Shown: positions 13,449-32,506 of the stretch, piece after piece
How positions within the stretch are numbered: the stretch's first letter is position 1
Layout: every line of letters begins with the position of its first letter
NCBI RefSeq assembly: GCF_007860185.1
Contig: NZ_SJPY01000011.1
Coordinates: 1-64,000, forward strand
DNA from: Novipirellula aureliae
GTDB taxonomy: Bacteria > Planctomycetota > Planctomycetia > Pirellulales > Pirellulaceae
Direction of reading: 5' to 3'
Length of the DNA stretch: 64,000 bases
Notes under the pieces: model-generated
The model's database searches: none
The model's input: only the letters and a program-made list of their open reading frames with translations
Told to the model about the DNA's origin: nothing
Made by a program: the position numbers and the translations under genes

Positions 13449-13909
13449 GATGATTGGCTTTGAGTGAATGAGGGGTTTGACAGGTGGCTTCGATGGCGCC
13501 CGATCGGTTCCGTTTGGCCGCAATTGGGCATCGTCGTATGGGGCATCGTCGTGCCAGCCTAGAAAGCCAGACTCTGTTTTGCAATTCGGCTAGTGCTTTG
13601 TCCAGCCAAAAAAATAGGGTGGGTCGTCCACGACCCTAAAGATATGTTTTGACAACGCACTACGGGGAAAACTCTGAAACGATTCCGGCTCGACGAAAAT
13701 CACGTTTCAGCACCGCAAAACATGCAGACAACTGCAGCCGGCGTGCAAGAATTTGCAGGGTTGTTCGTTGGGCGTGATAGGTCGGGGCATCTCTAACGAT
13801 TGACACAGTCGAAACGAAAATTCACTCTCTGCATTGCCGATGGGAAAGAAGGATACGCCGAAGGCTTACCCCTAACCCCGCCCCTATCAAGCACCAAGGA
13901 ACCTGGGCA
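13449..13909. other. Divergent promoter region between kinase and porin genes
   Basis: About 460 bp separate the diverging units. GGGGCATCGTCGT occurs twice in tandem near 13528-13552. A sequence reading TGGCACGACGATGCC on the minus strand resembles a sigma-54 promoter, but its GG-to-GC distance is nine and not ten. GGGTGGGTCGTCCACGACCC near 13618 contains a perfect GGGTCGT/ACGACCC inverted repeat and could be an operator or hairpin. Confidence 0.45.
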
Positions 13910-15302: not shown

Positions 15303-16751
15303 TTAGTCGAGCGGTATGCGTTGGAGAAACGCTACCGCTTGGTCGACCCACGCGGTCAGGAAAGAAGGCGTATAGACCCCTAGCAAGACCGTCAATCCAA
15401 CCGCGATAAAAATAGGTAGAATCAACAAAAAGCTTTCTCGAAATTGCTGTGGTGACCCCACGCCTTCGACTTCTTCGGCGGGCCCCAACATGAAACCCAA
15501 CAAGACGGACCCCATGCCGAAGAAAACGATCAATAGCAGGACCAAAAACGTGATGCCCCGTCCCACGTTCCCAGAGTCGAACGTACCACTGAGTATTTGA
15601 AATTCGCTGACAAAGGGTCCAAACAGTGGCGAACCGGTGATTGCAAAAAACAGAATCATCATCATCCATCCACTCCAGGGCAGTCGCTTGAGCACGCCGC
15701 GCACTTGGTCCGTCGTCTTGCTGCAATAGGCACGATGGATATTGGCCGCTGCCAGGAATAGCCCGGCCTTGCATAGTCCATTGTGAATGACATGAAGGAG
15801 TGCTCCACCCGTGGCAATACCGCCAATCCCAAGTCCAAAGACAAGCATCCCCATGTGCTCAACACTGCTGTAGGCCAACAGTCGTTTGATATCGCGTTGC
15901 CGGGGCATAAATACAGCCGCCGTTCCCATCGACAATAGTCCCATGAAGATCAACAACCGCTGTGAGTGCTGGTCGTCATCTGCGATATGAGCGATATGAA
16001 AGAATCGCAAGACGCATAAAAACGCACAACTCGTTAACCCACCCGCCAACAGGGCACCGACAATCCCCGGAGCTTCGCCGTAGGCGTCTGGTTTCCAGGT
16101 GTGCATTGGGGACAACCCCATCTTGGTGCCATAGCCTACTAACAACAGGACAAATGCGGCGTGCAACCAGGGCAACGACAAGGGGTGCGAATGCTCGATC
16201 AATTCATCGAAAAGTAGCGTCGATTCCGAACCCGCTTGAACCATTGCGTAAATCAAAAAGAACGACCCAAGAAGCGCCAATGCGATCCCGACGGATCCGA
16301 TCACTAAGTATTTCCAAGTCGCCTCGAGCGATTTGGGGTTGCGGTTGAAATAGACGCACGGTGCAGTCGCTAACGTGGTCGCTTCCATGGCAATCCACAT
16401 CAATCCAAGATGGTGCGATAGCGTGACGAGCGACATCATACCGAACGCGACGAGCAAACATGCGACCAAGATTCGATTGTCGCGTCCCAGTCGCAATCGA
16501 AGGTATGCGGGCGCGTACAATGCACAAATGAAGAACAACACGCTGATGAAGCCCACGAACAGTCGGCTTAGCGGATCGATCGCCAACCATCGGTCCATCG
16601 CCCATTGCTCCCCTTGCGGCAACATCCAGACAACCAATGCCAGATGGCAGACTGCGGTAACGGGCAAAATCCATGGGCGATGACGGTTCGAGGGAACCAG
16701 CATCGCGATAGCGGCCGCAACCAGCGGAACAAGAACGAGCAAGACAATCAC
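15303..16751 (-). CDS. hyfF: HyfF-like proton-pumping antiporter subunit
   Basis: The 482-residue membrane protein belongs to the NuoL/M/N-Mrp antiporter family, HyfF branch. The GTG start at 16751 has AGGA about ten bases upstream and lies six bases after the hyfE-like stop. Conserved ion-path residues are visible: IAMEATTLATAP (Glu in TM5), the Lys in VGYGTKMGLSPMHTWKPDAYGEAP, and the HNGLCKAGLF helix with its lysine. It is the last gene of the minus-strand unit and should form part of the membrane arm of the Ehr-type complex. Confidence 0.9.
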   Translation of the reverse strand: MIVLLVLVPLVAAAIAMLVPSNRHRPWILPVTAVCHLALVVWMLPQGEQWAMDRWLAIDPLSRLFVGFISVLFFICALYAPAYLRLRLGRDNRILVACLLVAFGMMSLVTLSHHLGLMWIAMEATTLATAPCVYFNRNPKSLEATWKYLVIGSVGIALALLGSFFLIYAMVQAGSESTLLFDELIEHSHPLSLPWLHAAFVLLLVGYGTKMGLSPMHTWKPDAYGEAPGIVGALLAGGLTSCAFLCVLRFFHIAHIADDDQHSQRLLIFMGLLSMGTAAVFMPRQRDIKRLLAYSSVEHMGMLVFGLGIGGIATGGALLHVIHNGLCKAGLFLAAANIHRAYCSKTTDQVRGVLKRLPWSGWMMMILFFAITGSPLFGPFVSEFQILSGTFDSGNVGRGITFLVLLLIVFFGMGSVLLGFMLGPAEEVEGVGSPQQFRESFLLILPIFIAVGLTVLLGVYTPSFLTAWVDQAVAFLQRIPLD

Positions 16752-16757
16752 GATACA

Positions 16758-17438
16758 CTATTCCTTCAAAGTAGAGAGATGCTCGACGCTGGCTTCCGGA
16801 AACGCTCGGCTGACGTGATTGAAGATGATCCCCATCACAAACACGCCGACGAACAAATCCAGCACGATCCCAAGTTCAACCAATAGGGGAACCGCTTCGA
16901 TCAATAATAGGCCGAAGATGAAGATCCCGTTTTCCAACACGATGTATCCCAGGACTTGTCCCATCGCTTCGCGGCGGCTACTAAGGATCAAGAAGCCACA
17001 CATCACGGTCGCCAAGGATGCAGGGATCGGTAGATGGCTGATGTGCTGCGGTGCCAACGGTAGCGACTTGGCAAAGACGAGTGCCAAGACCGTTGCCACG
17101 CCCCCTAACAGTAGCGGTAGCATCACGCCTACGGTGGAAGTGACCTGCGACCGCACATCCGCCAAACGTGCTGCACGAAGTAAGAAGCGTGGAATGAGAA
17201 ATCCTTTGACGAGCACAATCGTTGCTGTCAACGCCATCAAGCGGAGACCGCTGAACCAGCTCGTCGGCTCGGCATCTGCATGGGAAAGAAATCCGGTGTG
17301 GGCAATCGGATACAGCATGCCTAGCAGCGCACCCTGCATCGCGACCGCATAGATCATTTGTTTTAGATTGGTGGTCGTTAAAGCGTAAAAGTTTAACAGC
17401 AACGCAATCACGAGACCTGGGTCCAGTAAATCACTCAT
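16758..17438 (-). CDS. hyfE: HyfE-like membrane subunit
   Basis: The 226-residue protein has about six to seven transmembrane segments and aligns in layout with hydrogenase-4 component E, a NuoK-related fusion. The C-terminal part ILSSRREAMGQVLGYIVLENGIFIFGLLL, which I quote only by its key residues R, E and the ENG motif (about 154-178), is the family mark. Its ATG overlaps the upstream hyfC-like stop as ATGA, a sign of translational coupling. Confidence 0.85.
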   Translation of the reverse strand: MSDLLDPGLVIALLLNFYALTTTNLKQMIYAVAMQGALLGMLYPIAHTGFLSHADAEPTSWFSGLRLMALTATIVLVKGFLIPRFLLRAARLADVRSQVTSTVGVMLPLLLGGVATVLALVFAKSLPLAPQHISHLPIPASLATVMCGFLILSSRREAMGQVLGYIVLENGIFIFGLLLIEAVPLLVELGIVLDLFVGVFVMGIIFNHVSRAFPEASVEHLSTLKE

Positions 17439-18355
17439 TGATAGCTCAAAAGTAAGATGACTGCAAACAACGATACCACGCCGGCACCGATCAATAACTT
17501 CGGAATTTCAGCAATTTTTAATCGAGCCATCGTGGACTCAATCGTGCCGATCACCACGGCGACAAACAGTGTGCCGAGCAAGAAGATCAGCCAATCCAAC
17601 AGCGAGCTGCCGCTGTCAAACGGCAGGATTAGGTTGACAATCAAACCCGCAAAGACGAATAGCTTTAAGGCTGCGGCATAGACGATCAAGCCAAGGGTTG
17701 GTCCGCTGTGGTCTAGCACCATAACCTCATGGATCATCGTCAATTCCAAGTGCGTGTTGGGATCGTCAAATGGAATCCGGCAGTTCTCGACTAACAACAC
17801 CACGAACCACGACGCGACAATCAATAGCAGCGGAGCAGCGGCAACCCCCCACCCATTCGCGACCCCATCGCCAAGCATTTGGCTCATCTGCAGCGAACCG
17901 CTGAGTCGTGCGAACACCAATAGCCCTAAGAAAAGCACGGGTTCCGCCAGGACAGCGAACGTCGCTTCCCGCGCCGCGCCCATGCCTTCGAATGCCGATC
18001 CCGTGTCGAGAGCGGCAGCCATGGTGAAGAACCGACCAAGCGCTAAAACATAGGCAAACAAAATGAGGTCGCCAGTGAATGACAACGGTGCACTGGCGTG
18101 TCCGAGTGGGACGATGCAGGCCGCGACCAACGCGGTTACCACGCTCACGATTGGACCAAAACGAAACACCCATGACGTGGTTTCGCTAAACACACAATCC
18201 TTCTGCATCAATTTGATCAGGTCAAAATAGGTTTGCAAAATCGGTTGCCCGCGCCGTCCACCAAACATCGCTTTGGTACGGTTGATCACGCCTAACAATA
18301 GCGGTGGAAACGACAGTATGACGATCATATGGAAAAGGTTGTGGAGAATTATCAT
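17435..18355 (-). CDS. hyfC: HyfC-like membrane anchor (NuoH-related)
   Basis: The subunit is homologous to formate hydrogenlyase subunit 4/NuoH, which joins the soluble redox arm to the membrane arm. I chose the ATG at 18355 because it overlaps the hyfB-like stop codon as ATGA; upstream codons give no membrane-like sequence. The family marks are GGRRGQPILQTYFDLIKL (about 28-45), QKDCVFS, and the conserved cytoplasmic segment ENCRIPFDDPNTHLELTM with its acidic residues. About eight membrane segments are seen in 306 residues. This gene identifies the cluster as group-4-hydrogenase-like and not Mrp-like. Confidence 0.92.
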   Translation of the reverse strand: MIILHNLFHMIVILSFPPLLLGVINRTKAMFGGRRGQPILQTYFDLIKLMQKDCVFSETTSWVFRFGPIVSVVTALVAACIVPLGHASAPLSFTGDLILFAYVLALGRFFTMAAALDTGSAFEGMGAAREATFAVLAEPVLFLGLLVFARLSGSLQMSQMLGDGVANGWGVAAAPLLLIVASWFVVLLVENCRIPFDDPNTHLELTMIHEVMVLDHSGPTLGLIVYAAALKLFVFAGLIVNLILPFDSGSSLLDWLIFLLGTLFVAVVIGTIESTMARLKIAEIPKLLIGAGVVSLFAVILLLSYQ

Positions 18356-20388
18356 GCCGTTGGGTTCCATAGCATCAGACCAATCACGATCACAAGAATG
18401 TACAGTAAATACGCTTGCAAACTTCCCTGTTGCAAATAGCGGGAAAGCCCAAACAACCACGTCAATCCTTTCGTCGTCGGCTTGACCGCTTTCTCCAAAA
18501 CGGTGTCGTTCACATGGCTTTCAAACTCAGCATCGGCAGGAAACAATGTGTTGATAACCGGCAAGTGGACGGCTGGTCGCAAAGCCCATGCAAATAGATC
18601 AACCAACCATTGAGCGAACGACGATGACGTGTACTGCATCGACGCCGAAGGAGCCGCGTAACCACAATCCCAGGTGCCTGATTCAGGACTTGTGCGAACA
18701 CGACGCATTAACACCATGCTGCCAACTCCGATCAGTAGGATCAAAATACCGGCGACCACACTGATGGCCATCAACGGAGCAATGTTTGCCAAGTGAAGCC
18801 CCCCGACGTCCGCTGCGATGCCTGTATCGGCGGCTGCCCAAGTCGAGGTTGCGAGTTCTAGCATCGGAGCAAATAGTAGCGGCACCACACCGATCAGAAC
18901 ACAGCATCCCGCCAGTACCATCATTGGTCCTGTCATCGCGTGACCTGATTCGCGTGCCTTGGCTGCTTGCTGACTACGGCTCGCTCCGAGAAACACGATG
19001 CCATAGACTTTCACGAAACAGGCGACCGCCAAAGCTCCCACTAACGCCAAGCCAGGTGCTGCAAACGCGGCGGCTGAGGCGATCGATGCGGAGGGGGTTC
19101 CTGCGGGCGATGGATCCATTGGCATTTGAATCGTGCCGAACAGGCCGAGGTAAATCAATAATTCGGACACAAATCCATTGAGCGGAGGCAGCCCACAAAT
19201 GGCAACGGCTCCAATGAGAAAACAAGTTGCCGTTTGAGGCATGCGGCGGCTCAGTCCACCCATGATATCCAAATCGCGGCTACCGACTCGGTGAATCACC
19301 GAACCGGCTCCGAAGAACAGCAACGATTTGAATAGGGCATGATTCCAAACGTGGAGCAAACTGCCGCAAGCTCCCAGCAATACCCACTGAGGTTGGTGCA
19401 TCGCTCGACCGATCAGGGCAACCCCCAAACCCATTACAATGATGCCAACGTTTTCGATACTGTGGTATGCCAACAAACGCTTGATATCGTGTTGCCCAAT
19501 CGCAAAGGCAACCCCAAGGATCGCCGAGATCGTTCCGACAACCAAAGTGGTCATTCCCCACGACAATGGTATTTCAGGATAGAACGAGGCGACACGAAAA
19601 ATTCCATAAATGCCCATCTTAATCATCACGCCCGACATGACGGCCGATACATGACTGGGGGCCGAAGCGTGTGCGCCTGGCAACCATATATGCATCGGCA
19701 TCAAGCCTGCCTTGGTCCCAAATCCGACGAGTCCTAAGGCGGCCATCGCTATCGCAGCAACCGACGTCACGCCTGGAACGGTTGCGTATTCGAAAGAGCC
19801 GGTTTGTGCATACAAAAGGGCAAACACCCCAAAAGCACATAGCGTTGCAAAATGACTGGCTGCGATATAAAGCCACGCTGCTTTGCGAGTGGAGGCAATA
19901 TGATCTTCCGCCGCGACCAAAAAGTAGGCGGATACGGCCATTGCTTCCCAGCCAAACAAGAACGCGATACCATCGCGAGCGATCACTAGCATGATCATCG
20001 CAGCCGTCATTGTGCCGAGAAACAGAGAAACGCGACGTGGGTTGGCGGAGTGTTCGCTGTCGTGGTGGGGCCAATATTGAAGCGAATAGATCGACGCTAA
20101 ACCGCACACCAACAACACCGGAACGAGGAAAAACGCAGACAAGCCATCGACAGCAAACGTGAACGCAAAACCTGAGATCGGAGCCGCGATTCGCGTCACT
20201 TCGATCGATCCGTTTTGCAAGAAAGACCAAACCGCAACCAAGCCAATGGTACAACCGATGACATTCATCGCGATAGCAATCCATTGCCCTAGCGAAGAAC
20301 GTGCTGGCATCATCAGAGCGGGACATCCACTCAGACTGGACAGTAGGGTTGCGATGAGAATCAATTCGGTACTGGACACAAGCGACAC
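18352..20388 (-). CDS. hyfB: HyfB-like large antiporter subunit
   Basis: The 678-residue protein is the first gene of the minus-strand unit. It has an antiporter core with FGWEAMAVSAYFLV (Glu), GTKAGLMPMHIWLPGAHASAP (Lys) and WNHALFKSLLFFGAGSVIH, followed by a long C-terminal part with GTWDCGYAAPSASMQYTS, the HyfB signature. The longest frame begins with GTG at 20388; a second GTG three codons later (20379) has AAAGG at better spacing and may be the true start. With HyfC, HyfE and HyfF it would make the ion-translocating arm. Confidence 0.92.
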   Translation of the reverse strand: MSLVSSTELILIATLLSSLSGCPALMMPARSSLGQWIAIAMNVIGCTIGLVAVWSFLQNGSIEVTRIAAPISGFAFTFAVDGLSAFFLVPVLLVCGLASIYSLQYWPHHDSEHSANPRRVSLFLGTMTAAMIMLVIARDGIAFLFGWEAMAVSAYFLVAAEDHIASTRKAAWLYIAASHFATLCAFGVFALLYAQTGSFEYATVPGVTSVAAIAMAALGLVGFGTKAGLMPMHIWLPGAHASAPSHVSAVMSGVMIKMGIYGIFRVASFYPEIPLSWGMTTLVVGTISAILGVAFAIGQHDIKRLLAYHSIENVGIIVMGLGVALIGRAMHQPQWVLLGACGSLLHVWNHALFKSLLFFGAGSVIHRVGSRDLDIMGGLSRRMPQTATCFLIGAVAICGLPPLNGFVSELLIYLGLFGTIQMPMDPSPAGTPSASIASAAAFAAPGLALVGALAVACFVKVYGIVFLGASRSQQAAKARESGHAMTGPMMVLAGCCVLIGVVPLLFAPMLELATSTWAAADTGIAADVGGLHLANIAPLMAISVVAGILILLIGVGSMVLMRRVRTSPESGTWDCGYAAPSASMQYTSSSFAQWLVDLFAWALRPAVHLPVINTLFPADAEFESHVNDTVLEKAVKPTTKGLTWLFGLSRYLQQGSLQAYLLYILVIVIGLMLWNPTA

Positions 20389-20817
20389 CTTTGTGACACG
20401 ACGATGATCGAGAATATACTTTCCATGACGATACCTTCAAACGGGTTGGCATCGTAGCCTTTCTATACTGGGAGACGAAGTACCAGTGACAGAATTCTTG
20501 GTGTGGCAAAATTTCGCGTGCAAGCGATTGCATTCGTTCTGCAATGATCTGCACCAAAAGATCGCTTGCGTTTTGACCAGCATTGTGGACGAGTAAAAAA
20601 ATGGAAATGGATCGCGAGATCGTCGGCCCCATACCCCCAATGCTCATCGTGGGCCCTTCTATGGTACCCGTTTAGCCACTAAATTGACCTGCCTGTTCAT
20701 ATCGACGCCGTCGTATATCCTTAGCAGGGGCATCCGCTTGACGTGCATCCTCGTTGTGGCACGTAATAAGCATGTTTGCTCTCGACTTCTCGATCACTAT
20801 CCTTTTAAACAAATCGT
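20389..20817. other. Divergent control region between the two Ehr operons
   Basis: This 430-bp region separates the hyfB-like gene and the HTH-IIA gene. It contains the sigma-54-like promoter facing right. No clear sigma-54 site faces left; GGGCCCACGATGAGC on the minus strand near 20655 has the GG-N10-GC spacing but poor flanks. No open frame there has family features. Confidence 0.5.
20757..20772 (+). promoter_or_regulatory. Probable sigma-54 promoter of the HTH-IIA/hyfG/hyfI unit
   Basis: TGGCACGTAATAAGCA matches the -24 element (TGGCACG) exactly, and GG and GC are ten bases apart as sigma-54 requires; the -12 block is AAGCA where TTGCA is usual. It lies about 46 bp before the start codon of the HTH-IIA gene. 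An NtrC-type activator gene is present in the same window. Confidence 0.6.
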
Positions 20818-21501
20818 ATGGAACTGTCACTCCACCAAGTCGCCAAGATCTTCCGCGTCTCGGAGACGCAAATTATTGGTTGGATCAATAGCAAAAATCT
20901 ACCTGCCGAGTTGGTGTCGGATCAATATCGTTTCCATCGCGCCGATTTGTTAGAGTGGGCAGCGGTTGCGAATCGCTCCTTTGACCCTTCGATTTATTCG
21001 GAGGTCAATGGCGACTTGACACCTGCGGGAACCCATCTTGCCGATGCTTTAGAAAGGGGCGGCATCCTAGTCGATGTTTCGGGGAAAGGCATCCGTGATG
21101 TCTTGTCCAACGCGATCGACGGGTTGCCAATTCCCGCATCGATTGGCCATGATGACTTGATCGAATTGTTGCTCGCACGCGAAAGCGTTGGCAGCACAGC
21201 GCTCGGTGATGGAATCGCGGTACCCCATCCACGTAAACCAACCCTGGTTTCGGTTCCATCGGCAATGGTGAGGTTGTGCTATTTATCTCAACCGCTAGCG
21301 ATGAAGAGTCCTGATGGTATCCCGGTCGACAAACTCTTTTTGATGATTTGTCCAACCGTACACGAACATTTACAACTGCTCGCTCGACTCGGGGCACTGC
21401 TACAAAACGAGTCGGTGGGGCAGGCGCTCCGCGATAAAGTTGCGGGTGGTGAAATGTTCAAGATTTTGCGGGAAGCGGGTCAGGAATTTGTAGCGGCGTA
21501 G
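20818..21501 (+). CDS. HTH-PTS EIIA (PtsN-type) fusion regulator
   Basis: The 227-residue protein has an N-terminal helix-turn-helix of the excisionase/MerR kind (LHQVAKIFRVSETQIIGWI, about 5-23), a linker, and a fructose/nitrogen-type PTS IIA domain from about residue 70. The phosphorylatable histidine is H137 in DGIAVPHPRKP. This lets PTS phosphate flow be read at the DNA or protein level. It starts the unit with the hyfG-like gene 31 bp downstream, so it probably regulates the Ehr complex or its own operon. A separate PtsN, HPr and enzyme I set is encoded near 37-40 kb and could be its phosphate source. Confidence 0.88.
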   Translation: MELSLHQVAKIFRVSETQIIGWINSKNLPAELVSDQYRFHRADLLEWAAVANRSFDPSIYSEVNGDLTPAGTHLADALERGGILVDVSGKGIRDVLSNAIDGLPIPASIGHDDLIELLLARESVGSTALGDGIAVPHPRKPTLVSVPSAMVRLCYLSQPLAMKSPDGIPVDKLFLMICPTVHEHLQLLARLGALLQNESVGQALRDKVAGGEMFKILREAGQEFVAA

Positions 21502-21532
21502 AGAAAACAATCGATCATGCACGAGAATTTTA

Positions 21533-23071
21533 ATGACAGTTGCTGAACAATTGACGACAACAAACGGCGTTTCGGTTGCTACGGAGAGTGTTCCGCTACT
21601 GTCGTTCGATAGTTTTGCCGATCGGCTCGCTGAGCAACTCGATCACAACACCAGCGGTTTGTCCGCATTGTTCGGGGTTCCAACGGCGAGCCAAACCGTG
21701 CGATTGTACGCCGTCACCAACCGAGCAACCAAATCGGAAGTGACCATTTTTGCAACCGACGTCGGCGATTCCTACCCTGCGTTGTCGGTGCGAACGCCGC
21801 AAGCCCATTGGTTTGAGCGAGAAATCGCCGAACAGTGGGGGATTGTGCCGGAAGGTCACCCCTGGTTGAAGCCGATTCGGTTCCACCGATCGTATGTCGC
21901 GACGCGCGATGCCTGGGGACGCAGCGAGAACGAAGAGATATTGCCAAGCGTGCAGCCTCAGGGAACGGACTATTTTAAAATTCGTGGCGATGAAATCCAC
22001 GAGGTTGCTGTCGGACCGGTACATGCTGGGGTGATCGAGCCAGGCCATTTTCGATTTCAATGTCATGGCGAGAATGTGTTTTCGCTCGAGATTGAACTTG
22101 GCTTTCAGCATCGTGGTATCGAACGGCAATTACTTGGCGGGCCTGATAAACGATCGCTGCACTTCATGGAAACACTCTCGGGTGATACATCGATTGGCCA
22201 TGCGACCACCTATTGTCAAGCACTGGAAGGACTCGCAGGCGTCGATGCGCCTCTTCGTGCTCATTCGATTCGCGCGATTGCGTTGGAGTTTGAGCGGCTG
22301 GCGAATCACACCGGCGATCTGGGGGCTTTGGCGATGGATGTTGGTTTTTTGCCGACGGCTTCGTTCTGTGGCCGATTGCGGGGCGATTGGCTCAATGCGA
22401 GTGCGTTGATTTGTGGCAATCGTTTTGGCCGTGCCACCGTGCGGCCTGGCGGTGTACAATTTGATCTGGACGAAGAACGCATTGACGAGCTTCAAACGCG
22501 AATCGATGCAATTTATCGCGATGTGACGGGTGCCGCTGAATTGCTTTGGAATACACCAAGCGTGATGGCTCGTTTCGAAGGTTGCGGCGTGGTTCCACGT
22601 CATGTAGCCGACGACTTGGGCTTGGTGGGAATCGCAGGCCGAGCGTGCGGGATTGATCGTGACGCGCGGCGAGATTTCCCATTCGGCATCTTCCGATTCC
22701 ACCAAATTCCTGTCTCGACATCGAGTACAGGTGACGTGTTTTCGCGTGCTTATGTGCGTTGGCTAGAAATCCAAAGGTCGGTGCGATTTATCCAAGAACA
22801 ACTGCGTGCAATGCCGAAAACGGCAACGCGGCGTGATCTTGATGAGTTGAAAGGCAATCAATTCGTGGTTTCGATCGCCGAGGGTTGGCGCGGCGAAATT
22901 TGCCATGTTGCCCTCACCAATCACGAGGGTCAATTCGAGCACTACAAAGTGGTCGACCCCAGCTTTCACAATTGGATCGGTTTGGCGATGGCCCTGCGGA
23001 ATCAAGAAATCTCGGACTTCCCGGTCAACAATAAAAGTTTCAATCTCAGTTACTGCGGACACGATCTGTAA
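21533..23071 (+). CDS. HyfG/HycE-like large subunit without NiFe ligands (Ehr type)
   Basis: The 512-residue protein joins a NuoC-like part (about 25-145) and a NuoD/hydrogenase large-subunit part. GPVHAGVIEPGHFRF (161-175) is the strong group-4 hydrogenase mark. The CxxC normally seen in RVCGICG is replaced by LSGDTSIGH (215-223), and the C-terminal DPCxxC is DPSFHNW (475-481). All four cysteines that bind the NiFe centre are therefore missing, as in the energy-converting-hydrogenase-related (Ehr) complexes. It cannot be a normal hydrogenase. The active chemistry of Ehr complexes is unknown to me. It sits three bases before the hyfI-like gene. Confidence 0.9.
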   Translation: MTVAEQLTTTNGVSVATESVPLLSFDSFADRLAEQLDHNTSGLSALFGVPTASQTVRLYAVTNRATKSEVTIFATDVGDSYPALSVRTPQAHWFEREIAEQWGIVPEGHPWLKPIRFHRSYVATRDAWGRSENEEILPSVQPQGTDYFKIRGDEIHEVAVGPVHAGVIEPGHFRFQCHGENVFSLEIELGFQHRGIERQLLGGPDKRSLHFMETLSGDTSIGHATTYCQALEGLAGVDAPLRAHSIRAIALEFERLANHTGDLGALAMDVGFLPTASFCGRLRGDWLNASALICGNRFGRATVRPGGVQFDLDEERIDELQTRIDAIYRDVTGAAELLWNTPSVMARFEGCGVVPRHVADDLGLVGIAGRACGIDRDARRDFPFGIFRFHQIPVSTSSTGDVFSRAYVRWLEIQRSVRFIQEQLRAMPKTATRRDLDELKGNQFVVSIAEGWRGEICHVALTNHEGQFEHYKVVDPSFHNWIGLAMALRNQEISDFPVNNKSFNLSYCGHDL

Positions 23072-23074
23072 TCC

Positions 23075-23854
23075 ATGTTCAAAATTCTTAACCAACGTCG
23101 CTGCCAACAATATCGCACCATCGATTGGCCTGACGGGGACGCACCGAAATTGTCCGCTCGCTATCGCGGTTTGCCGGTGATCGATTCGAGTCGCTGTCCA
23201 GATGGTTGCCAGGCGTGCGTCGATGCCTGCCCGACCAATGCCATTTCCATCAACGGTTCGCTGAAAATGGACTTAGGGAAATGCTTGTTTTGTACCGATT
23301 GTGTTGACGCCTGTCCCGAGTCCGCGATTTCCTACAGCGAAGATTTTCGTCAAGCCGTCCGTGTTCGAAATGACTTGGTCGTTGATGGCGGGGCGATCGT
23401 GTTGGCGGATGCGTTGGAAGCAAAATCGCGAAAACTGTTTGGTCGATCGCTACAATTACGGCAAGTGAGTGCGGGTGGCTGTAACGCCTGCGAAGCCGAC
23501 ATCAATGTGCTGAGCACGATTGGGTTCGATCTCGGTCGGTTCGGAATTCACATCGTGGCCTCGCCCCGGCACGCCGATGGCTTGATCATCACCGGTCCTG
23601 TGACCGAAAACATGAAATTGGCACTAAAGAAAACCTACGATGCCATCCCATCGCCAAAGATTGTCATCGCCGTTGGGGCATGCGCGATTAGCGGTGGTCC
23701 ATTCATCGACAATCCAGAGCAGAACAACGGCGTGGATCACATGTTGCCCGTCGACCTCTACATTCCCGGTTGCCCACCACACCCGCTGACGATTCTCGAT
23801 GGATTGCTACGCCTGTTGGGTCGAATCGAAGACGACTCGTCGGATACACACTAA
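23075..23854 (+). CDS. Ferredoxin-HyfI (NuoB-like) fusion subunit
   Basis: The 259-residue protein fuses two parts usually encoded apart. Residues 35-90 hold two 4Fe-4S sites: C41, C45, C48, C52 (CPDGCQACVDACP) and C70, C73, C76, C80 (CLFCTDCVDACP). Residues 125-250 are a NuoB/HycG small subunit with C136 and C139 (GGCNACE), C203 (VGACAISGG) and C233 (PGCPPHP), the full ligand set of the proximal cluster N2. The complex thus keeps an electron path even though the NiFe site is gone. It replaces separate HyfA/HyfH and HyfI proteins. Confidence 0.9.
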   Translation: MFKILNQRRCQQYRTIDWPDGDAPKLSARYRGLPVIDSSRCPDGCQACVDACPTNAISINGSLKMDLGKCLFCTDCVDACPESAISYSEDFRQAVRVRNDLVVDGGAIVLADALEAKSRKLFGRSLQLRQVSAGGCNACEADINVLSTIGFDLGRFGIHIVASPRHADGLIITGPVTENMKLALKKTYDAIPSPKIVIAVGACAISGGPFIDNPEQNNGVDHMLPVDLYIPGCPPHPLTILDGLLRLLGRIEDDSSDTH

Positions 23855-24306
23855 CGCTGTGTCCCAATTCCGATGTTGGCATGCCCGAAGTGGGCGCGGT
23901 TTCGATTCGCGAACGTTCACGAAGCGAGTGGCATTCTTCGCGTAGTCTCTCAACTTCTCTTTGTGTAGCGGGCCGAGCTTCCGTCCTCCCAAGCACAGGA
24001 GGCCATGTTGTTTTTAGATGCATGTTTCACAGGCGTTGGCGCTTGTGAGACATCTCATGTAGCGGCGCATCCGCAATGGATTGCACCGCGGCTGCAAGGA
24101 TTTGCAGATGTCGGATTCTCGTAACGGGCACGATTCTCGATATGGTTGTTTTGTCTTCCTTAAAGTGCATTTCTGTGCAAGAAATGCTCTCCGCATGAAG
24201 GTCTCGATTCGCTTGGCACGGGGAGTGCTTCTAGCTGGCAAGGTCACAAACGTTATGAGAGCGTTCGGACAACTGCCATCTTGTACTTTATAGAACGACT
24301 CGCACC
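23855..24306. other. Region between the Ehr and Dab units
   Basis: About 450 bp without a supported gene. The right half holds a sigma-54-like promoter. I see no convincing rho-independent terminator behind the hyfI-like gene, so partial read-through into dabA is possible. Confidence 0.5.
24214..24229 (+). promoter_or_regulatory. Probable sigma-54 promoter of the dabA unit
   Basis: TGGCACGGGGAGTGCT matches the consensus TGGCACG-N4-TTGCT with one mismatch and has exactly ten bases between GG and GC. It lies about 78 bp before the dabA start. The same arrangement precedes the HTH-IIA/hyfG unit, so both plus-strand units may share one activator. Confidence 0.65.
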
Positions 24307-27300
24307 GTGATTGTCGAAACCTCTGAACAACCATCTGAGTCCAACCCGTCCGATAGCCGTTTGGATGAGTTGCAATCAATTATTGACCATGCGATCCATT
24401 TTTTGCCTGCGCAAGGTCCTATCGAAGTTTTTGTTCATCACAACACGCTACATGCGTTCGAGGACAAGTCGTTCCATGAAGCGGCGCGATTGGCATCAAA
24501 GATCTATGACGCGAATCCGTATCTGAGCGAACAACGATACCGCGAGATGCTGGAGTCGAAGCGGATTCGGATTGCGGATCTAAAGGCGGTCTTGGCTGAT
24601 GACATGGTCAGTCGTGCCGATGCAACGATCGACGGCTTGGGAACTCGTTTCGATTTACGGCTTTCGATGCTACTCTATCCGCTTCGTACCGCCCCCGAAG
24701 CCGAGTTGCGATGGGTGATTGCTGAAAGTGACGCGTTGAGCCGATTCCGGCCTGAGGTCTCGTCGTTGGTTCGCGAACAAGTTCTTGAAGCGACCCAGAA
24801 ATATGTATTGTCGTCACTGGTACGAATTCCAACGGCGAATGGAAGTAGCACGAGACAACTCGCGGACCTGCTAGACGAATTCGGCCATGGCGACCCAGCA
24901 CATTGGAGCGAGCGGCGGTGGGAGGAATTCACGCTGCGTTATCTTTGGCAAGTTTGTGATTCCGGTATTCGCGCGGCGAGTATGGATGAGGGCACGTTGC
25001 GAGTGCCAATTCGTGGACGGGACGCTTTGCTCGCAGCGACGGGGCAAGACACCGACCGCTATGTTCATGAAACACTGATCCGGTTTTGTGCTGCGTTCTT
25101 GGATCAGGGGTATGCCGATTGGCGACTGCCTCAGCGAGAAGCGGGCCTGTTCGGGTCGTTTGTAGAGGTATATGGCAAACCCAGTTTATTCGCCGAATCA
25201 TGGCTACATTCCTTGCCGGATGAGCTAAAGAAGATATCGCAAGCCCAGATGACGCCGCTTGAATCGATAGACGAATCGTTAACGATGCTTGGCGTTCCAA
25301 TGTCCGATCGAGCGATGTTTATCACCAAGAGTTTGCTGGCACTCGGTGGTTGGGCCGGAATGATATGGCAACTCGAATCGTCAGCAACTTGGGTGGACCG
25401 CCCCATCCGCCCTGGATCGCTGATGGAGTTCTTGGCCGTTCGTTTGATATTGGACCGAGTTGCGATCGACTATGTCGCTCGTGAATACTTACGTTTTGGG
25501 GGGGCCCTTAGCCAGGTGAGTGACGCGGCTTGGAAAAAGGCCGCCGCATTGAACGATTCTCACTTCCAGACCACTTTCCAGATTTTTCAAGTGGCACAGT
25601 CGATGGGTTGGGCACCTCAAGCGATGGGGCAAATGTCGACAGAAGATTGGCGGGCATTGATCGGCGAAGTCCGTGATTTCGACGAGCTGCATCGCCGCTG
25701 TATCTTCCACGAAGCTTACGAAAAATCGTACCGAACGGATGCGCTCGACGCGTTGACTCTGCATTGCCGAACGATAAACAATGGTCCCAAAGAACCAATC
25801 TCACGACCTTCGTTTCAGATTGTGTGCTGCCTTGATGACCGGGAAGAATCGATTCGTCGGCACATCGAAGAGGTCGATCCGGCAGCCATCACATACGGTG
25901 CGGCAGGTTTTTTTGCGGTGGTGATGAATTACCAAGGTGCCGCCGACGCGGGGTACAAGCCATTGTGCCCGGTGGTGGTGACGCCGAAGCATTTCGTTCG
26001 CGAAAACGTCGGCTATACATTTGCGGGTGAAGATCGTCGGCGAGCAGGAACACGGCGAACGCTTGGCCATTTGACGCACCAAGTTCACTCCCGTAGCCGA
26101 ACGATTGGCGGGGGCGCGTTGACTGCGATCTTCGGATCATTGGCCGCATTTCCGCTGGTTGCTCGCGTGTTATTTCCACGAATCACTTCGCAAATTAGGC
26201 GGCGTGCGGGACGGTTTGTTCAACCACCACCGATCACGCAATTGCAACTCGAACGCTACCAAGTGGAACCGGGACCAGAGAATGGGCACGTTGGCTACAC
26301 CGTCGATGAGATGGTCGAAATCGTCTCGCGTTTGCTCAACGATATTGGTGCACTGAAAAATTTCTCGCGGCTTTTCGTGGTGACGGGACATGGATCTTCG
26401 AGTACGAATAATCCCCACGAGTCCGCTTACAATTGTGGTGCCTGTGCTGGCAAACGGGGTGGCCCGAACGCTCGAGCGGTCGCACAAATGGCAAACGATT
26501 GGCGTGTTCGAGCCAAACTGCTCGAACTTGGATTGCGAATCCCCAATGACACGGTTTTCCTTGGTGCTTACCACAATACTTGTGACGACAGTTTGGTGTG
26601 GTTCGATTTGGATCGTATGCCATCGTCTCACTTTGCCGATTTTGAACATGTAAAAACGGTCGTCGATGAAGCACGAAAAAGAAACGCTCACGAACGTTGT
26701 CGTCGATTCGAGTTGGCGTCGCTCGATTTAACGCCAACCGAAGCGCTGCGGCACGTCGAGCAGCGGTCCGAAGATTTGTCTCAGGTGCGTCCCGAATACA
26801 ACCACGCCACCGATGCGATGTGTTTCGTTGGACGCCGTGATTGGTCGAGAGGCTTGTTTTTGGATCGACGTACATTTTTGACATCGTACGATCCCGCCGT
26901 TGATGACGAAGAACAATCGATCCTGCTTGGGATCTTGTCTGCTGCGATCCCCGTCTGTGCAGGCATTAGTTTGGAGTACTATTTCTCCGCGGTTGACAAT
27001 GGCAAGTTCGGATCGGGGTCAAAGTTGCCGCACAACATTGCGTCGCTGCTTGGTGTGATGGAGGGGGCAACGAGCGATTTACGTACCGGTTTGTATCAGC
27101 AAATGGTCGAAATTCACGAGCCAATGCGAATACTGTTTGTGATCGAGACAACACCTGATGCGATGCGGAGCGTGATGCAGCGTCATGTGGGGATTAGGAG
27201 ATTGGTCGAAGGCGAATGGGTTCAACTCGCATTGATCGACGCAGAAACCTCAACTCTTCTGTTCTATCGTAACGGCGATTTCCATCCGCATCGCTGCGAA

Positions 27301-27459
27301 TCGAGTTCGTTACCACAGGTTAATCAGTCGTCGGATTGGTATTCGGGATGCCGCGAGCACTTAGGGTTTGCGACCATTCGTAAGACAGCAATCGTCGATC
27401 GACCGTTGATAGCCGAGGCGGCGAAAGAGTTCACAACCGAACAAGAGGTGGCGTCATGA
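24307..27459 (+). CDS. dabA: DabA-like inorganic-carbon transport protein (DUF2309)
   Basis: DabA forms with DabB a membrane complex thought to take up CO2/bicarbonate through an energy-coupled carbonic-anhydrase-like site. The 1,050-residue protein (GTG start) has the expected ligands: C508 and D510 in [11 protein letters not shown]695 in [11 protein letters not shown] and C710 in YNCGACAG. The H-to-C spacing of 15 residues equals that of the characterised Halothiobacillus protein (H524/C539). The N-terminal [10 protein letters not shown] motif (44-53) is also a family mark. The dabB-like ATG overlaps its stop as ATGA. No RuBisCO gene is present in the window, so the use may be pH control or supply of bicarbonate to carboxylases. 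Confidence 0.93.
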
Positions 27460-28955
27460 CGCTTGAAACAAGCATTCATTTTTTCGGCGTGATGGTCGTC
27501 GCGGCTCCCGCGGTTTTGTTGTCCATGCTCGGTTTAAGCATGCTGTTTGGGATTCCGCTCAGTGAAAAATCGACGTCACGATTGACTCAATCGTCCGTCG
27601 CGATCGGATTGCTTGCGGTTCTCTCGATCCTACTGTTAATGTTGTGGAACGGTGATCGGCATCTACCAATCGAAATGGGCAATTGGGTTTCGATCCAAGA
27701 GCAACATTTCCACTTTCATTTGAAGTTTGTCTTCGACCGGCTTAGCATTCCGTTTACGATTTTGACATTCGTTTTGTGTGGAACGATCGGTGCTTTTGCA
27801 AAGGTCTATTTGCACCGTGAACCAGGTTACAACCGGTTCTTTTTGTTGTATAGCGTGTTCTTACTCGGGATGGTCGTGTCGTCGCTTGCGGGAACGATTG
27901 AAACGTTATTCTTTGGTTGGGAGTTGGTCGGATTATCGTCTGCGTTATTGATCGCGTACTTCCATGAACGTCAAACGCCAGTCATCAACGGACATCGTGT
28001 TTGGAGTGTCTACCGCATTGCCGACGCCGCATTCTTAGTTGCAGCATTGACGATGCACCATTTGACGGGGGGTGGCGATTTCGACGGTTTGATGGGATCT
28101 GGCCCGTGGCCCGAAGGTGTCGCCAGTATCGATCCACATGCTGCATTGGTCGTGGGACTACTGTTATTGGTTGCCGCAGCGGGCAAGTCGGGCATGGTGC
28201 CGTTTTCAGGCTGGCTACCCCGAGCCATGGAAGGGCCTACTCCATCAAGTGCGGTCTTCTACGGAGCGTTGTCGGTCCACTTGGGCGCGTACATGTTGTT
28301 GCGTGTCAGTCCGTTGTTAGATGTTTCTTTTCCGCTTCGCGTTTGCGTGATTGTGATGGGAGCGGCCTCGGCCCTCTTTGGTGCGTTGACCGCCCGCGTG
28401 CAAACCGATGTCAAGAGTGCGCTTGCGTATGCATCGCTAACTCAAGTCGGGATCATTGTGGTTGAAATTGGTTTTGGGTTTCACTATCTCGCGTTAATTC
28501 ACATCATTGGCCACGCGTTGATGCGAACGCTTCAATTGCTACGCGCTCCATCGCTGCTGAAAGACTACCACACGTTGGAAGATGCGATCGGTGGTCATTT
28601 GCCGCAGACGGAATCGATCATTCGATCACCGCAGCGTGGTGGTTCGCCACGCTTGTACCGTTTCTGTTTAGAGAGAGGTCATTTGGACGCAATGATTGAT
28701 CGTTTTGTCGTTCGCCCTTTTGAAAAGACGTTTCTCTGGACAGGCGAGATGGAGCGACGATGGACGCGGTTCCTTTCAGGGGATCGTTCACCGCAGGTCG
28801 ACCAAGCACGATGGGAACATCCCTCGATCAATCCCGAACCTCGTGAAACCACAACACAGCGAACTGCAACGCAACCAATCACAACGCAAAAAAGGATGAG
28901 TGCCACCGTGCTAACTAGCGGCCAACTCTCGACACGGGAGAACTCCGATGCCTGA
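27456..28955 (+). CDS. dabB: DabB-like NuoL-family antiporter subunit
   Basis: The 499-residue protein has the NuoL/MrpA-type antiporter core: [20 protein letters not shown] (about 152-171), [19 protein letters not shown] (about 244-262) with the conserved Lys, [20 protein letters not shown], and [17 protein letters not shown]. It would couple ion flow to DabA. After about residue 385 the sequence is soluble and ends in a Thr/Gln-rich tail ([14 protein letters not shown]). It is translationally coupled to dabA and overlaps the next gene by eight bases. Confidence 0.88.
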
Positions 28956-30396
28956 GATGCATTTTCCATGGCTTGAATTGTCGATCCTCATTCCGCTAAT
29001 GGGTTCTGTGCTCGTTCGATTACCAAAGAATCGAGAATTTGCACGCAAGCTGTGTGTGGCAATTTGTGTGTTAACGTTGGCGTGTACGATTGGCGAATTC
29101 TGGGACTTCGCAAGTCTTGACCGGTTTGAAGCTCATGACCACGGGGGGTTATTGTCCTACTTATTTCGCCAGGGATTGTTTGTTGTTGACGAACTGAGCG
29201 CACCGCTGTTTCCGTTAACCGCCTTGATCTTCTTGATGACGTTTCTATCCACGCTAAAGACCAAGCTTGACCGGTTTTCTTTGAGTGGAACGTTGGTCTC
29301 TGAGTCGATTCTTCTCGCGACCTTTAGTTGCCGTGCGGGATGGTTGTTGGTCGTGCTGTTGGCTCTGGGGACGTTGCCACCACTGATTGAACTGGCCTAT
29401 CGCCGCCGCGAGGGGATTCGGGTTTATGCCATTCATATGGGGTTGTTTGTTGCTTGCCTGATCGCCGGATGGGCTTTGCTTCCCAGTGAAGCGTACACAA
29501 TGGATGCGGCGACGATTTCTAGCAAACTCACTTTCCGGTTTCTATTGAGCGGTGCGTTGTTGACGATCGCTGGATTGATTCGTAGTGGGGTCGCGCCACT
29601 GCACTGCTGGATGACCGACCTGTTTGAACGGGCGACGTTAGGCACGGCGTTGTTGTTTGTCGTTCCGATGCCCGGAGTCTATGCTCTGATGCGATTGGTG
29701 TTGCCAATCGCTCCCTCGTGGGCACTGCAAAGCATTGCGATCTTGTCCCTGATTACATCGGTTTACGCCGCAGCAATGGCGTTGGTCGAGACGGACGCTC
29801 GCAAGTTCTTTTGTTACCTGTTCCTCTCTCATGCCTCGCTGGTCTTAGTCGGCTTGGAACTTGTCACGGCCGTCGGATTAACCGGGGCATTGTGTTTGTG
29901 GCTGTCGGTTGGTTTGTCGCTAAGCGGCCTTGGTTTGACGCTTCGATCGGTTGAAGCCCGAATGGGACGCATTGATTTATCACGATTTCACGGGCTGCAT
30001 GAACACACACCCATCTTGGCTGGATTGTTTCTGCTAACGGGACTCGCTTCCATCGGTTTCCCAGGCACGATTGGGTTCATTGGAACGGAACTTCTAGTCG
30101 AAGGGGCCGTCGGCGTCTATCCATTGATCGGGATGGCGGTCGTTGTTGCAGCGGCACTGAATGGAATTGCCATTTTGAGAGTCTACTTTCGCGTATTTTC
30201 GGGGACTCAGTTTTCAGCAACGGTTTCGTTCATGGCCAAACGCGAAGAACGATTCGCGGTGTTGGTGCTGACATTGCTAATCATCGGTGGTGGTTTGTGG
30301 CCACAGCCAAGTGTGGCATCTCGCTACCACGCAGCGAAAGCACTCATCCAAAAAAGATTGGACCAGGAAGTAAGTCATCCACCGCCGGAATCGTGA
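28948..30396 (+). CDS. Second antiporter-like subunit of the Dab unit
   Basis: The 482-residue protein has about 13 membrane segments and resembles NuoM/NuoL-like subunits but is more diverged. [16 protein letters not shown] (about 217-232) occupies the place of the HxWLPxAxxxAP segment, and [20 protein letters not shown] matches the broken helix before it. Most canonical lysines are not obvious, so proton translocation is uncertain. Its eight-base overlap with the dabB-like gene suggests a three-protein DabA-DabB-X complex. Confidence 0.7.
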
Positions 30397-30499
30397 TTCG
30401 GTAAAAGGCTTGGCGACTTCTGCTACGAAATTCGAAAGTCTTGACGACTCCCGCTTCACATCAAACAAGTAAACACATTTACAAACTGAGTCATCGATC

Positions 30500-32506
30500 A
30501 TGAACGGTTCCGAAAATGATAGTAATGTTAAAACTCCGCGTGGCGATCTTGCCGGGTTTACGAAGTACTTGAAGAGCGACGTGACGTCGGGCTTTTTGGT
30601 TTTCTTGATTGCCTTGCCGCTGTGTCTGGGGATTTCATTGGCTTGCGGTTTCCCACCGATCGCTGGGATCTTTACGGCGATCATCGGATCGGTGCTGACA
30701 ACGTTTGTCAGCAATTCGGAGTTGACGATCAAAGGCCCTGCAGCCGGTCTCATCGTGATTGCAATTGGTTGCATCGAGGATTTCGGTGGCAACGGAATGA
30801 CGGATGGTTGGATACCGTCTGATATGACCGCCTACAAGGCGGCGTTGGCGGTCGGAGTCGCGGCAGCGGTACTACAGATCCTCTTTGGGATTTTCCGCGC
30901 CGGTATATTGGGAGAGTTTTTCCCCGTCTCGGCGGTTCACGGGATGTTGGCCGCGATCGGTGTCATTATCATCCTAAAACAATTTCCCGTCGCACTAGGT
31001 GTTTCCGCGGGGGGGGAACCACTCGAAATGCTACGCGAAATCCCTGATTATATCGCGGAAGCGAACCCCGCAATCGCGTCGATCGGGATCGTCAGTATCT
31101 TGATTATGTTCTTTTGGCCAATGATCCGAGCAAAGGTAAGTTTATTAAAAGCGATTCCGGCACCGTTGATCGTTTTGCTTGTTACCGTACCAATGGGTAT
31201 GGCATTCGATTTGTTGCATACGCATTCGTATATGCTGCAAGAACATCAATATCAACTTGGCGAACAATATTTAGTTAAGATGCCGACACGTGTTTTTGGG
31301 ATGTTTGACGACATTACCACCCCTGACTTTTCGGTATTGCGACAGGTCAAAGCTTGGAAGTGGGTAATGATGTTCTTCATCATCGGAACCCTTGAATCGG
31401 TTCTCAGTGCCAAGGCGGTAGACCTGCTCGACCCATGGAAGCGTAAAACCAACATGGACCGTGACATTGTTGCGGTTGGTATCGGCAACCTTTGCGCGTC
31501 GGCGGTCGGCGGGTTGCCGATGATTTCAGAGATCGTTCGCTCCAAAGCGAATATCGACAACGGCGCGAAAACGCGATTCGCCGACATGTGGCATGGCGTG
31601 TTCCTGCTGATCTGTGTGGCCATGATTCCAATGGTTTTGCATCGCATCCCACTCGCGGCTCTCGCCGGAATGCTCGTTTATACCGGTTATCGCTTGGCTC
31701 ACCCAAACGAGTTTGTTCATGTGTATCGAATTGGAAAAGAGCAACTGGCAATCTTTGTGACGACCCTGATCATGGTTTTGGCGACCGACCTGCTAATCGG
31801 TGTTGCGGCGGGCATTTTGCTGAAAATGTTGATCCATCTATCCAACGGCGTGCCCATGAAATCGTTGTTTAAGCCATACATCGAAGTCGAGGAAATCGAT
31901 GAGAACACAAGTTTGATTGTAGCCCGAGAATCAGCCGTCTTTAGCAATTGGATTCCGTTTCGTCGTCAAATCGAGCAGATCGGCTTGATCCAAAGAAGGA
32001 ACCTGATTATCGACGTGTCCGACACGAAGCTCATCGATCATAGCGTGATGGAGAAACTCAAAGAAATGGAACGCGACTTTGAGCAAGAAGGTTTGACCTT
32101 TGAAGTTCGTGGTCTTGATTCCCTTCAGCCTCTTACCGATAACGCCAATGCCGCTCGTAAACGTGGTCTCGCATCCATGCGGCGGGTGACACTTGTTGCA
32201 GATGCAACGATCGAACATTGGCTCGAAGAGGAACTTATCCAGCTTGGTGCGAGCGGATTGACTTCCATCGTTTGTCACGAAGCCAAATCCAACGGCGTAG
32301 ACGATGGTGTCCAATCCTGCAATGGGAAGGTCCGTTTGGAATTGATTGCACCGCGATCAACTTGTGATGCGATGTTGACGTTTGTTCGGCAGGACGTTTT
32401 GCCGCTGCATAGCGTCTTGGTAAGTGTCGAGAACGTGGATGTACTACGTACCAGTGATTTTGTGTCCGATCCTTTCCCCGCTGAATCTGAATCACTCTCG
32501 CATTAG
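30500..32506 (+). CDS. SulP anion transporter with STAS and PII-like C-terminal domain
   Basis: SulP proteins carry bicarbonate or sulfate, usually with Na+. The first 430 residues form the transporter core ([52 protein letters not shown]). A STAS domain follows at about 455-565 ([20 protein letters not shown]). The last 95 residues ([51 protein letters not shown]) have the beta-alpha-beta order of a PII/SbtB-like domain. With dabAB directly upstream, bicarbonate is the likeliest substrate and the PII-like tail a possible built-in regulator. The PII assignment is inferred from secondary-structure rhythm. Confidence 0.88.

Follow-up and report, generated by a model that had tools for sequence, protein, structure and literature searches.

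Ehr and class-2 Dab genes as recurrent neighbours in Novipirellula aureliae and its relatives: a candidate redox-energised system for CO2 hydration

We analysed positions 1-64,000 of contig NZ_SJPY01000011.1 of Novipirellula aureliae (this whole stretch is called the window), with emphasis on the locus at 15303-32506 and its flanking genes. The locus joins genes for a complete Ehr complex to a dabA-dabB-ant2 set for a predicted CO2-hydrating membrane complex (Dab) and to a gene for a SulP-family transporter. Genomes holding both modules usually hold them as neighbours, and the linked Dabs with readable residues all show the glutamate pattern of a group that we call class 2. We propose that Ehr energises the class-2 Dab through a shared ion gradient, two machines making up one regulated unit, and we give this reading an even chance of being correct. 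Ehr complexes, whose original survey is reportedly that of Marreiros, and DAB complexes, said to have been first reported by Desmarais, are each known; their recurrent union and the split of Dab into two classes appear undescribed, as far as our searches show. No literature joining Ehr with Dab was found among the open-licence matches listed; PMC10052474 and PMC7714395 were considered and dropped, since 'Ehr' stands there only within author names.

The window encodes a complete Ehr complex at 15303-23854. HyfG lacks both NiFe CxxC pairs and has METLSGDTSIGH and NNKSFNLSYCGHDL at these places, where a NiFe relative in the same sample (G007) carries RICGIC and DPCFSC. HyfI keeps the eight ferredoxin-type cysteines of its two 4Fe-4S motifs (C41, C45, C48, C52 and C70, C73, C76, C80) and the four of its NuoB domain (C136, C139, C203, C233), and a HyfB/C/E/F-like membrane arm is present. 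An earlier reading of the window from its letters alone (the sequence-only reading) had described just such an Ehr, with the Fe-S path kept and the NiFe ligands missing, and in this it was right. It had also seen seven Ehr genes in one run and then dab. The genes are real, but they lie on two divergent strands (hyfB-C-E-F minus; the regulator gene, hyfG and hyfI plus), and a gap of 452 bp separates hyfI from dabA. Among HyfG relatives (best 80 of at least 568), which come from many phyla, hyfB-C-E-F-G-I mostly run in one direction, whereas in the window the halves diverge and the dab operon stands behind hyfI. The subunit set and a HyfG without NiFe cysteines are shared with the Ehr of Geobacter sulfurreducens (GSU0739-0745). 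The best PDB match of HyfG is subunit 5 of formate hydrogenlyase (PDB 7z0s, 152.5 bits), one of the group 4 NiFe hydrogenases; these have two CxxC pairs in the large subunit, both of which the window HyfG lacks and the anammox relatives described below keep.

All named genes at 15303-32506 are intact reading frames with the expected Pfam domains except hyfE, which has no Pfam match and reached 61 bits with the NCBIfam model 'hydrogenase 4 membrane subunit' (NF008556, cut-off 136). The open reading frame (ORF) of hyfC extends to 18460, its likely ATG being at 18370 or 18355. Proton_antipo_M (PF00361) was found by Pfam in hyfB, hyfF, dabB and ant2. A pyruvate:ferredoxin oxidoreductase was considered as electron donor on account of ORFs of 1177 (G145) and 1217 (G060) amino acids behind hyfI, and ruled out: they encode a kinase/Hsp70 protein and a protein without Pfam match. 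The function of Ehr is called unknown (PMC10284858), its role in Geobacter is said never to have been investigated (PMC7894505) and redox-driven charge translocation is suspected (PMC6349859). For a complex found in many phyla, to which these papers assign no established function, a recurrent Dab neighbour, whose role in energised CO2 hydration is fairly well understood, offers a concrete hypothesis that is open to gene deletion.

That the locus holds DabAB with a NuoL-like subunit had been stated in the sequence-only reading and stands. C508, D510, R512, H695 and C710 of the window DabA align with C351, D353, R355, H524 and C539 of DAB2, so that the Zn ligands (C508, H695, C710) and the D510-R512 dyad are kept. 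The membrane finger (about residues 577-632), however, has no acidic residue and carries Ile at the column of DAB2 Glu444. This column is acidic in all 28 class-1 DabA of the window's family (Glu in 25, Asp in 3), in none of 33 class-2 DabA and in none of nine anammox DabA. The whole finger slice is free of acid in 32 of the 33 class-2 rows, L070 having one Asp outside the Glu444 column; the nine anammox rows have Asp or Glu elsewhere in the slice. In the fifth transmembrane helix (TM) of DabB the pattern is reversed. A Glu at the NuoL TM5 position (GWELVG in class 2), which we take to be the counterpart of Glu144 of E. coli NuoL, is present in 32 of 32 class-2 rows and 9 of 10 anammox rows (L207 has Gln), and a non-acidic residue takes its place in all 21 readable class-1 rows (30 small-locus DabB were sought and 24 found). 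TM5 could not be read in two DabB rows (L014, L025), and L026 (G096) and L080 are one and the same gene. The window DabB keeps E156, K244, K320, H349 and H353.

The comparison is with DAB2/DAC of Halothiobacillus neapolitanus (PDB 9rd0), which shares the DabA Pfam family, the Zn ligands, the Asp-Arg dyad and a DabB of NuoL type in which two Lys and two His of the proton path are present. It differs from the window Dab in its Glu444, in the missing TM5 Glu, in having TM12-15 and in having no NuoM-like third subunit. According to PMC13144422, DAB2 requires Glu444 in the membrane finger, has Ile151 at the TM5 position, where restoring Glu halved the growth yield, is argued to be driven by the proton motive force, and is said in the Discussion to work independently of electron transfer. 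The swapped glutamate, in the DabA finger or in DabB TM5, amounts to a structural prediction on how ion flow is coupled to CO2 hydration in DABs.

In phmmer, moreover, the match of the window DabB to NuoL-type chains extends to about residue 376, a second, C-terminal NuoL piece reaching a non-significant 2.5 bits. In its AlphaFold model (pLDDT 78.0), 11 long membrane helices are followed by a stretch of low confidence and then by a further helix; the alignment of the model with NuoL covers about 360 columns. Class-2 DabB is thus modelled as ending after TM11, without TM12-15, a feature unmentioned in the sequence-only reading. A NuoM-like ant2 follows dabA-dabB in 20 of 20 Ehr-free loci, picked by DabA match size out of the family list, and its R212 and E381 are invariant in 32 rows. 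As to the Dabs linked to Ehr, the finger acid is missing in the window, L081, G044, G119, G145 and three anammox loci, and the TM5 Glu is present in all of these except G119, where the contig ends in dabA. Three linked DabA were not classed, since the G101 protein is cut off by a contig end and the proteins of G014 and G078 lack the finger. DabB of the anammox loci is longer, with 665 residues, and the fetched loci show no homologue of ant2 next to it.

To count neighbours, we took as strict Ehr a HyfG without the NiFe CxxC pairs, and excluded the NiFe hydrogenase of G007 (C597). L063 was not part of alignment A1, and L067 was set aside. In the window's family (149 genomes; adjacency meaning Ehr and DabA within 10 kb) DabA occurs in 89 genomes and strict Ehr in 11, of which 8 also have DabA; in 7 of these 8 the two are adjacent, G104 being the exception. 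When named genomes were scanned with 10 aligned HyfG as query, at least 568 relatives came up, and the loci of the best 80 were fetched; dabA lies in the flanks of one of these Ehr loci, L081 from genome G532 of the Planctomycetaceae. A further genome, G539 (L088), has both modules without adjacency. In total, 8 of 10 genomes with strict Ehr and DabA have them within 10 kb, where about 0.04 would be expected at random positions if these related genomes are treated as independent. The sequence-only reading had said that the link would fall if the modules were rarely neighbours in related genomes. Across phyla they are (1 of the best 80), yet DabA (at E <= 1e-20) is absent from 78 of these 80 genomes; in the window's family they are not.

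In the HyfG tree (137 rows) the Dab-linked label needs at least four changes, and the linked rows lie in three separate parts. These are clade A (the window, L081, G044, G101 and G119; support 85, or 99 with the unlinked G060), clade B (G014, G078, G145; support 100) and G315, G461 and G477 within the anammox group. Because gene layouts differ between the linked clades, they speak for separate joinings of Ehr and Dab. In the DabA-DabB-ant2 tree (33 rows), Ehr linkage forces at least three changes, and Dab operons do not follow linkage. The clade-A rows stand in three places, the window with L081 and the unlinked G137, G044 with G042, and G119, by a partial DabA, with G053. One Ehr lineage is thus found in front of Dab operons that differ in descent, whether through transfer or through repeated loss.

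The third part of the tree concerns anammox organisms. The group was recognised as anammox by the hydrazine synthase alpha subunit of G315 (1597.8 bits to PDB 5c2v); a search in G461, of the same family f46, gave no match, and the hydrazine synthase Pfam model also matches planctomycetes that are not anammox. We considered these loci as Ehr and counted them apart from it, because HyfG keeps both NiFe cysteine pairs (RICGVC and ELCYSC) in 9 of 9 rows. In the linked layout dabA-dabB precede hyfB-C-E-F-G-I on the same strand, with a SelR gene between them in G315. Elsewhere in the group, in G404 a 173-residue hyfI-like ORF stands behind dabA-dabB and the other hyf genes are missing, in G394 2 Mb separate the two sets, and in G300, G437 and G472 the sets are split between contigs and do not meet within the flanks fetched. 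Through the linked loci Dab is tied to a NiFe-cysteine-bearing relative of Ehr in biogeochemically weighty organisms. The large subunit of these enzymes (L190:14171-15760, L192:14546-16135) stops three residues beyond its last Cys and lacks a C-terminal extension. In hydrogenase large subunits such an extension is normally removed during maturation.

The junctions between the modules differ within clade A. In the window, hyfI and dabA are on the same strand, and the sequence TGGCACGGGGAGTGCT, which differs from the sigma-54 consensus (-24/-12) at one position, lies 93 bp before the GTG of dabA; L081 likewise has a one-mismatch site in a gap of similar size (about 450-500 bp). In G044 the end of hyfI and the start of dabA share 29 nt (counting the stop codon and taking the first ATG as start), and the distance between the two genes is 18 bp in G101 and 32 bp in G119; none of these three has a sigma-54-like site before dabA (3-4 mismatches). 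Sites with at most one mismatch precede 13 of 35 dabA genes, and 12 of the 35 regions have at least 3 mismatches. Such sites are not enriched in the window (4 found, 5.2 expected), so that the case for a functional site would lie in its position and its recurrence before dabA elsewhere. One possible reading of these junctions is a development in two stages, separate promoters first and a single operon later.

In the mechanism that we propose, electrons would reach HyfG by way of HyfI, through its two 4Fe-4S clusters and its NuoB-type cluster, and ions would be pumped through HyfB and HyfF. DabA, a beta-carbonic-anhydrase-like CO2 hydratase, would sit on DabB and work with the NuoM-like third subunit, and SulP would move an anion, possibly bicarbonate. 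The redox reaction of Ehr would sustain the ion gradient and, through it, one-way CO2 hydration, and electron flow would pay for bicarbonate kept in the cell for carboxylations. The Fe-S electron path, ion pumping and CO2 hydration are predicted from the named families, and that Ehr powers Dab we infer. Observed, by comparison, are the gene content and the residues kept and lost, and, in favour of such powering, the adjacency in 8 of 10 genomes, the separate parts of the tree, the tight, operon-like junctions in three relatives and the complex-I-like residues of DabB. The latter leave room for a closer, lateral coupling of Ehr and Dab as in complex I, which would be possible by analogy. Also in favour are the joint absence of the two modules from the other sampled members of the genus, the places of clade-A Ehr before Dab operons from several parts of the Dab tree, and the drive by proton motive force argued for DAB2. 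The sequence-only reading had suggested that the modules share an energy source, the Ehr arm feeding the same ion gradient or exchanging subunits with Dab, and this would likewise have to be inferred. Its caution about carbon fixation, based on the lack of RuBisCO in the window, holds for the whole genome, which gave no match to the large chain. Among 14 genomes searched only G044 gave one, of 96 bits to part of the model. Because no match was found, bicarbonate for anaplerotic or ordinary carboxylations, or pH balance, is the likelier purpose.

Several findings weigh against this reading. DabA occurs anywhere in only 2 of the best 80 Ehr genomes (G532, G539), and G104 and G539 hold both modules apart. 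In a phylum sample of 392 genomes, Ehr (HyfG of at least 508 bits) was counted in 37 and DabA in 60, both together in the window's genome only; three f77 genomes with lower scores (two inspected, NiFe-less), none of which carries a listed DabA, and some fragments were not counted. Even in the family Ehr brings no clear enrichment of DabA (8 of 11 genomes, against 89 of 149). Ehr carriage thus does not raise the odds of DabA; where both are present, they are usually neighbours. The class-2 trio stands without Ehr in all 20 loci fetched for that purpose, and many Ehr-unlinked Dabs have class-2 residues, so that the class is not specific to linkage. The missing sigma-54-like site is not special to the fused loci G044, G101 and G119, since 9 unlinked regions are alike in this. 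In the window itself, with its site and its 452-bp gap, co-transcription of dabA with hyfG-hyfI is not indicated by the sequence. A single ancient linkage followed by many losses would, in principle, also account for the scattered linked rows.

Direct physical coupling, in which DabA, DabB and ant2 would bind where the Ehr membrane arm ends and electron transfer would drive CO2 hydration, seems to us unlikely. It would explain why the TM5 Glu of class-2 DabB is as in NuoL, and it agrees with the DAB2 result that Glu put back at Ile151 is harmful (PMC13144422). The finger without an acid at the Glu444 column, the NuoM-like subunit that accompanies class 2, and the anammox locus of G461, in which dabA-dabB run into hyfB-C-E-F-G-I, fit as well. 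Yet identical class-2 residues occur in Dabs without Ehr in the locus, and neither the Ehr-free trios nor the separate sigma-54-like site of the window dabA suggests that Dab needs Ehr subunits. In G014 a finger-less DabA without adjacent DabB heads the Ehr operon (L069:5265-7982), as does one in G078 that has lost its first part (L071:12495-14468). We considered these as proof of subunit exchange. This is weakened by a dN/dS of 0.19 in G014, against 0.07-0.10 for the hyf genes (weaker constraint), by a Cys replacing the dyad Arg and by the shortened G078 copy, and these genes may be decaying. The AlphaFold model of the finger-less DabA (pLDDT 70.6) gave no meaningful Foldseek match. Also unlikely, in our view, is the further-reaching idea that class-2 DABs are built for lateral coupling to other antiporter-like subunits and that here, joined to Ehr, they make up a redox-driven membrane complex for CO2 hydration, evolved from different parts as a counterpart of cyanobacterial NDH-1MS. 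NDH-1MS, whose carbonic anhydrase module is not known to be based on PF10070, is alike in concept. There, redox-driven antiporter-like subunits power a Zn carbonic anhydrase (PMC6981117). Its redox part, however, is NDH-1 and that of the window is Ehr. Such a complex, if real, would give one Ehr lineage its first function.

Shared regulation only, both modules answering the same signal (low CO2, redox or pH stress) with no energetic coupling, we regard as doubtful. The regulators of the locus (a sigma-54 response regulator and kinase, the regulator with helix-turn-helix and EIIA domains (HTH-EIIA), and the sigma-54-like site before dabA) and the fact that each module occurs elsewhere without the other would agree with it. 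The regulators differ, however, the sigma-54 pair standing beside Dab and HTH-EIIA beside Ehr, and the stacking recurs in separate lineages with different layouts. That an Ehr cassette came to lie between porin and dabA without functional meaning is very improbable. The weak genome-level association given above (1 of 37 Ehr genomes with DabA, against 60 of 392 overall, and the family figures) and a conserved rne-ptsI flank from which the island is absent in the genus would suit an accident. Against this stand the adjacency in 8 of 10 genomes, two strict-Ehr clades plus the anammox relative, and tight hyfI-dabA junctions in three relatives, for which chance alone is an unlikely cause. The interpretation given in the sequence-only reading finds partial support.

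Table 1. Features of the locus and its upstream flank, with coordinates in the window
Feature	Position	Strand	Basis
NtrC-type sigma-54-dependent response regulator	10685..12127	-	Pfam Response_reg, Sigma54_activat, HTH_8
Histidine kinase	12084..13523	-	Pfam HisKA, HATPase_c
Porin_O_P outer-membrane porin	13910..15295	+	Pfam
hyfF-like antiporter subunit of Ehr	15303..16751	-	PF00361; NCBIfam hydrogenase 4 subunit F models below cut-off
hyfE-like membrane subunit of Ehr	16758..17438	-	NF008556 below cut-off; recurs in Ehr loci
hyfC/NuoH-like subunit of Ehr	17435..18370	-	PF00146 (NADHdh)
hyfB-like antiporter subunit of Ehr	18352..20388	-	PF00361; NF005086 554.8 bits, below cut-off
Regulator, HTH_17 + PTS EIIA_2	20818..21501	+	Pfam
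hyfG, NuoC-NuoD fusion without NiFe ligands	21533..23071	+	Complex1_30kDa + 49kDa
hyfI, two 4Fe-4S motifs + NuoB domain	23075..23854	+	Oxidored_q6 + Fer4
Sigma-54-like -24/-12 site TGGCACGGGGAGTGCT	24214..24229	+	consensus match, one mismatch
dabA, class 2	24307..27459	+	PF10070, 767 bits
dabB, NuoL-like, TM1-11 only (predicted)	27456..28955	+	Proton_antipo_M
ant2, NuoM-like	28948..30396	+	Proton_antipo_M; accompanies class-2 Dab
SulP-family transporter, candidate bicarbonate or sulfate carrier	30500..32506	+	PF00916

The flanking genes suggest how the locus was assembled. The sequence-only reading had mentioned neither the sigma-54 regulator and kinase (10685-13523) nor the Porin_O_P gene. 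The kinase is the likely partner of the response regulator, and homologues of the pair adjoin dabA in many Ehr-free Dab loci, as do Porin_O_P homologues in some Ehr-free sister loci. Because a Porin_O_P homologue sits between kinase and dabA in L076, L223 and L227, the Ehr block has the appearance of a segment of about 8.5 kb inserted between porin and dabA. The sulP gene lies behind ant2 in 13 of 20 Ehr-free sister loci. The other two sampled members of the window's genus have neither Ehr nor DabA. The rne-ptsI flank is conserved in them with different neighbours, and no Ehr-Dab island was found at the same place in these two genomes. As the flank is conserved while the island is absent, the island is mobile or often lost.

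An HTH-EIIA homologue (at least 45 bits) accompanies 39 Ehr loci across phyla (best 80 of at least 568), a recurrence that hints at control of Ehr linked to the phosphotransferase system (PTS). A PTS enzyme I-like gene with domains of phosphoenolpyruvate-utilising enzymes is located at 37385-39130 of the window. Regarding the Ehr subunits, L063 (G060) has a HyfG 66% like that of the window, with hyfF and hyfB at 44% versus 60-69% in clade-A G101 and G044. These figures suggest that the two Ehr arms may be able to recombine. G101 (L061:5255-8191) has two neighbouring hyfF genes, whereas the window has one. Two hyfB genes occur in 11 of 21 loci with a hyfF at least 50% like the window's, versus 10 of 65 others. 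The idea that DabB replaced a second hyfB was nevertheless set aside as suggestive only, several one-hyfB loci being without Dab.

Two further features of the window may be mentioned. A pyridoxal phosphate-dependent decarboxylase (PF00282), perhaps a glutamate decarboxylase, is encoded at 3382-4803, at a distance of about 20 kb from dabA; its reaction would set CO2 free and take up protons. Beside rne, at 35546-37006, lies a long run of near-identical repeats (translated HRLEACATCFF.TGWKPVLR), open in several frames.

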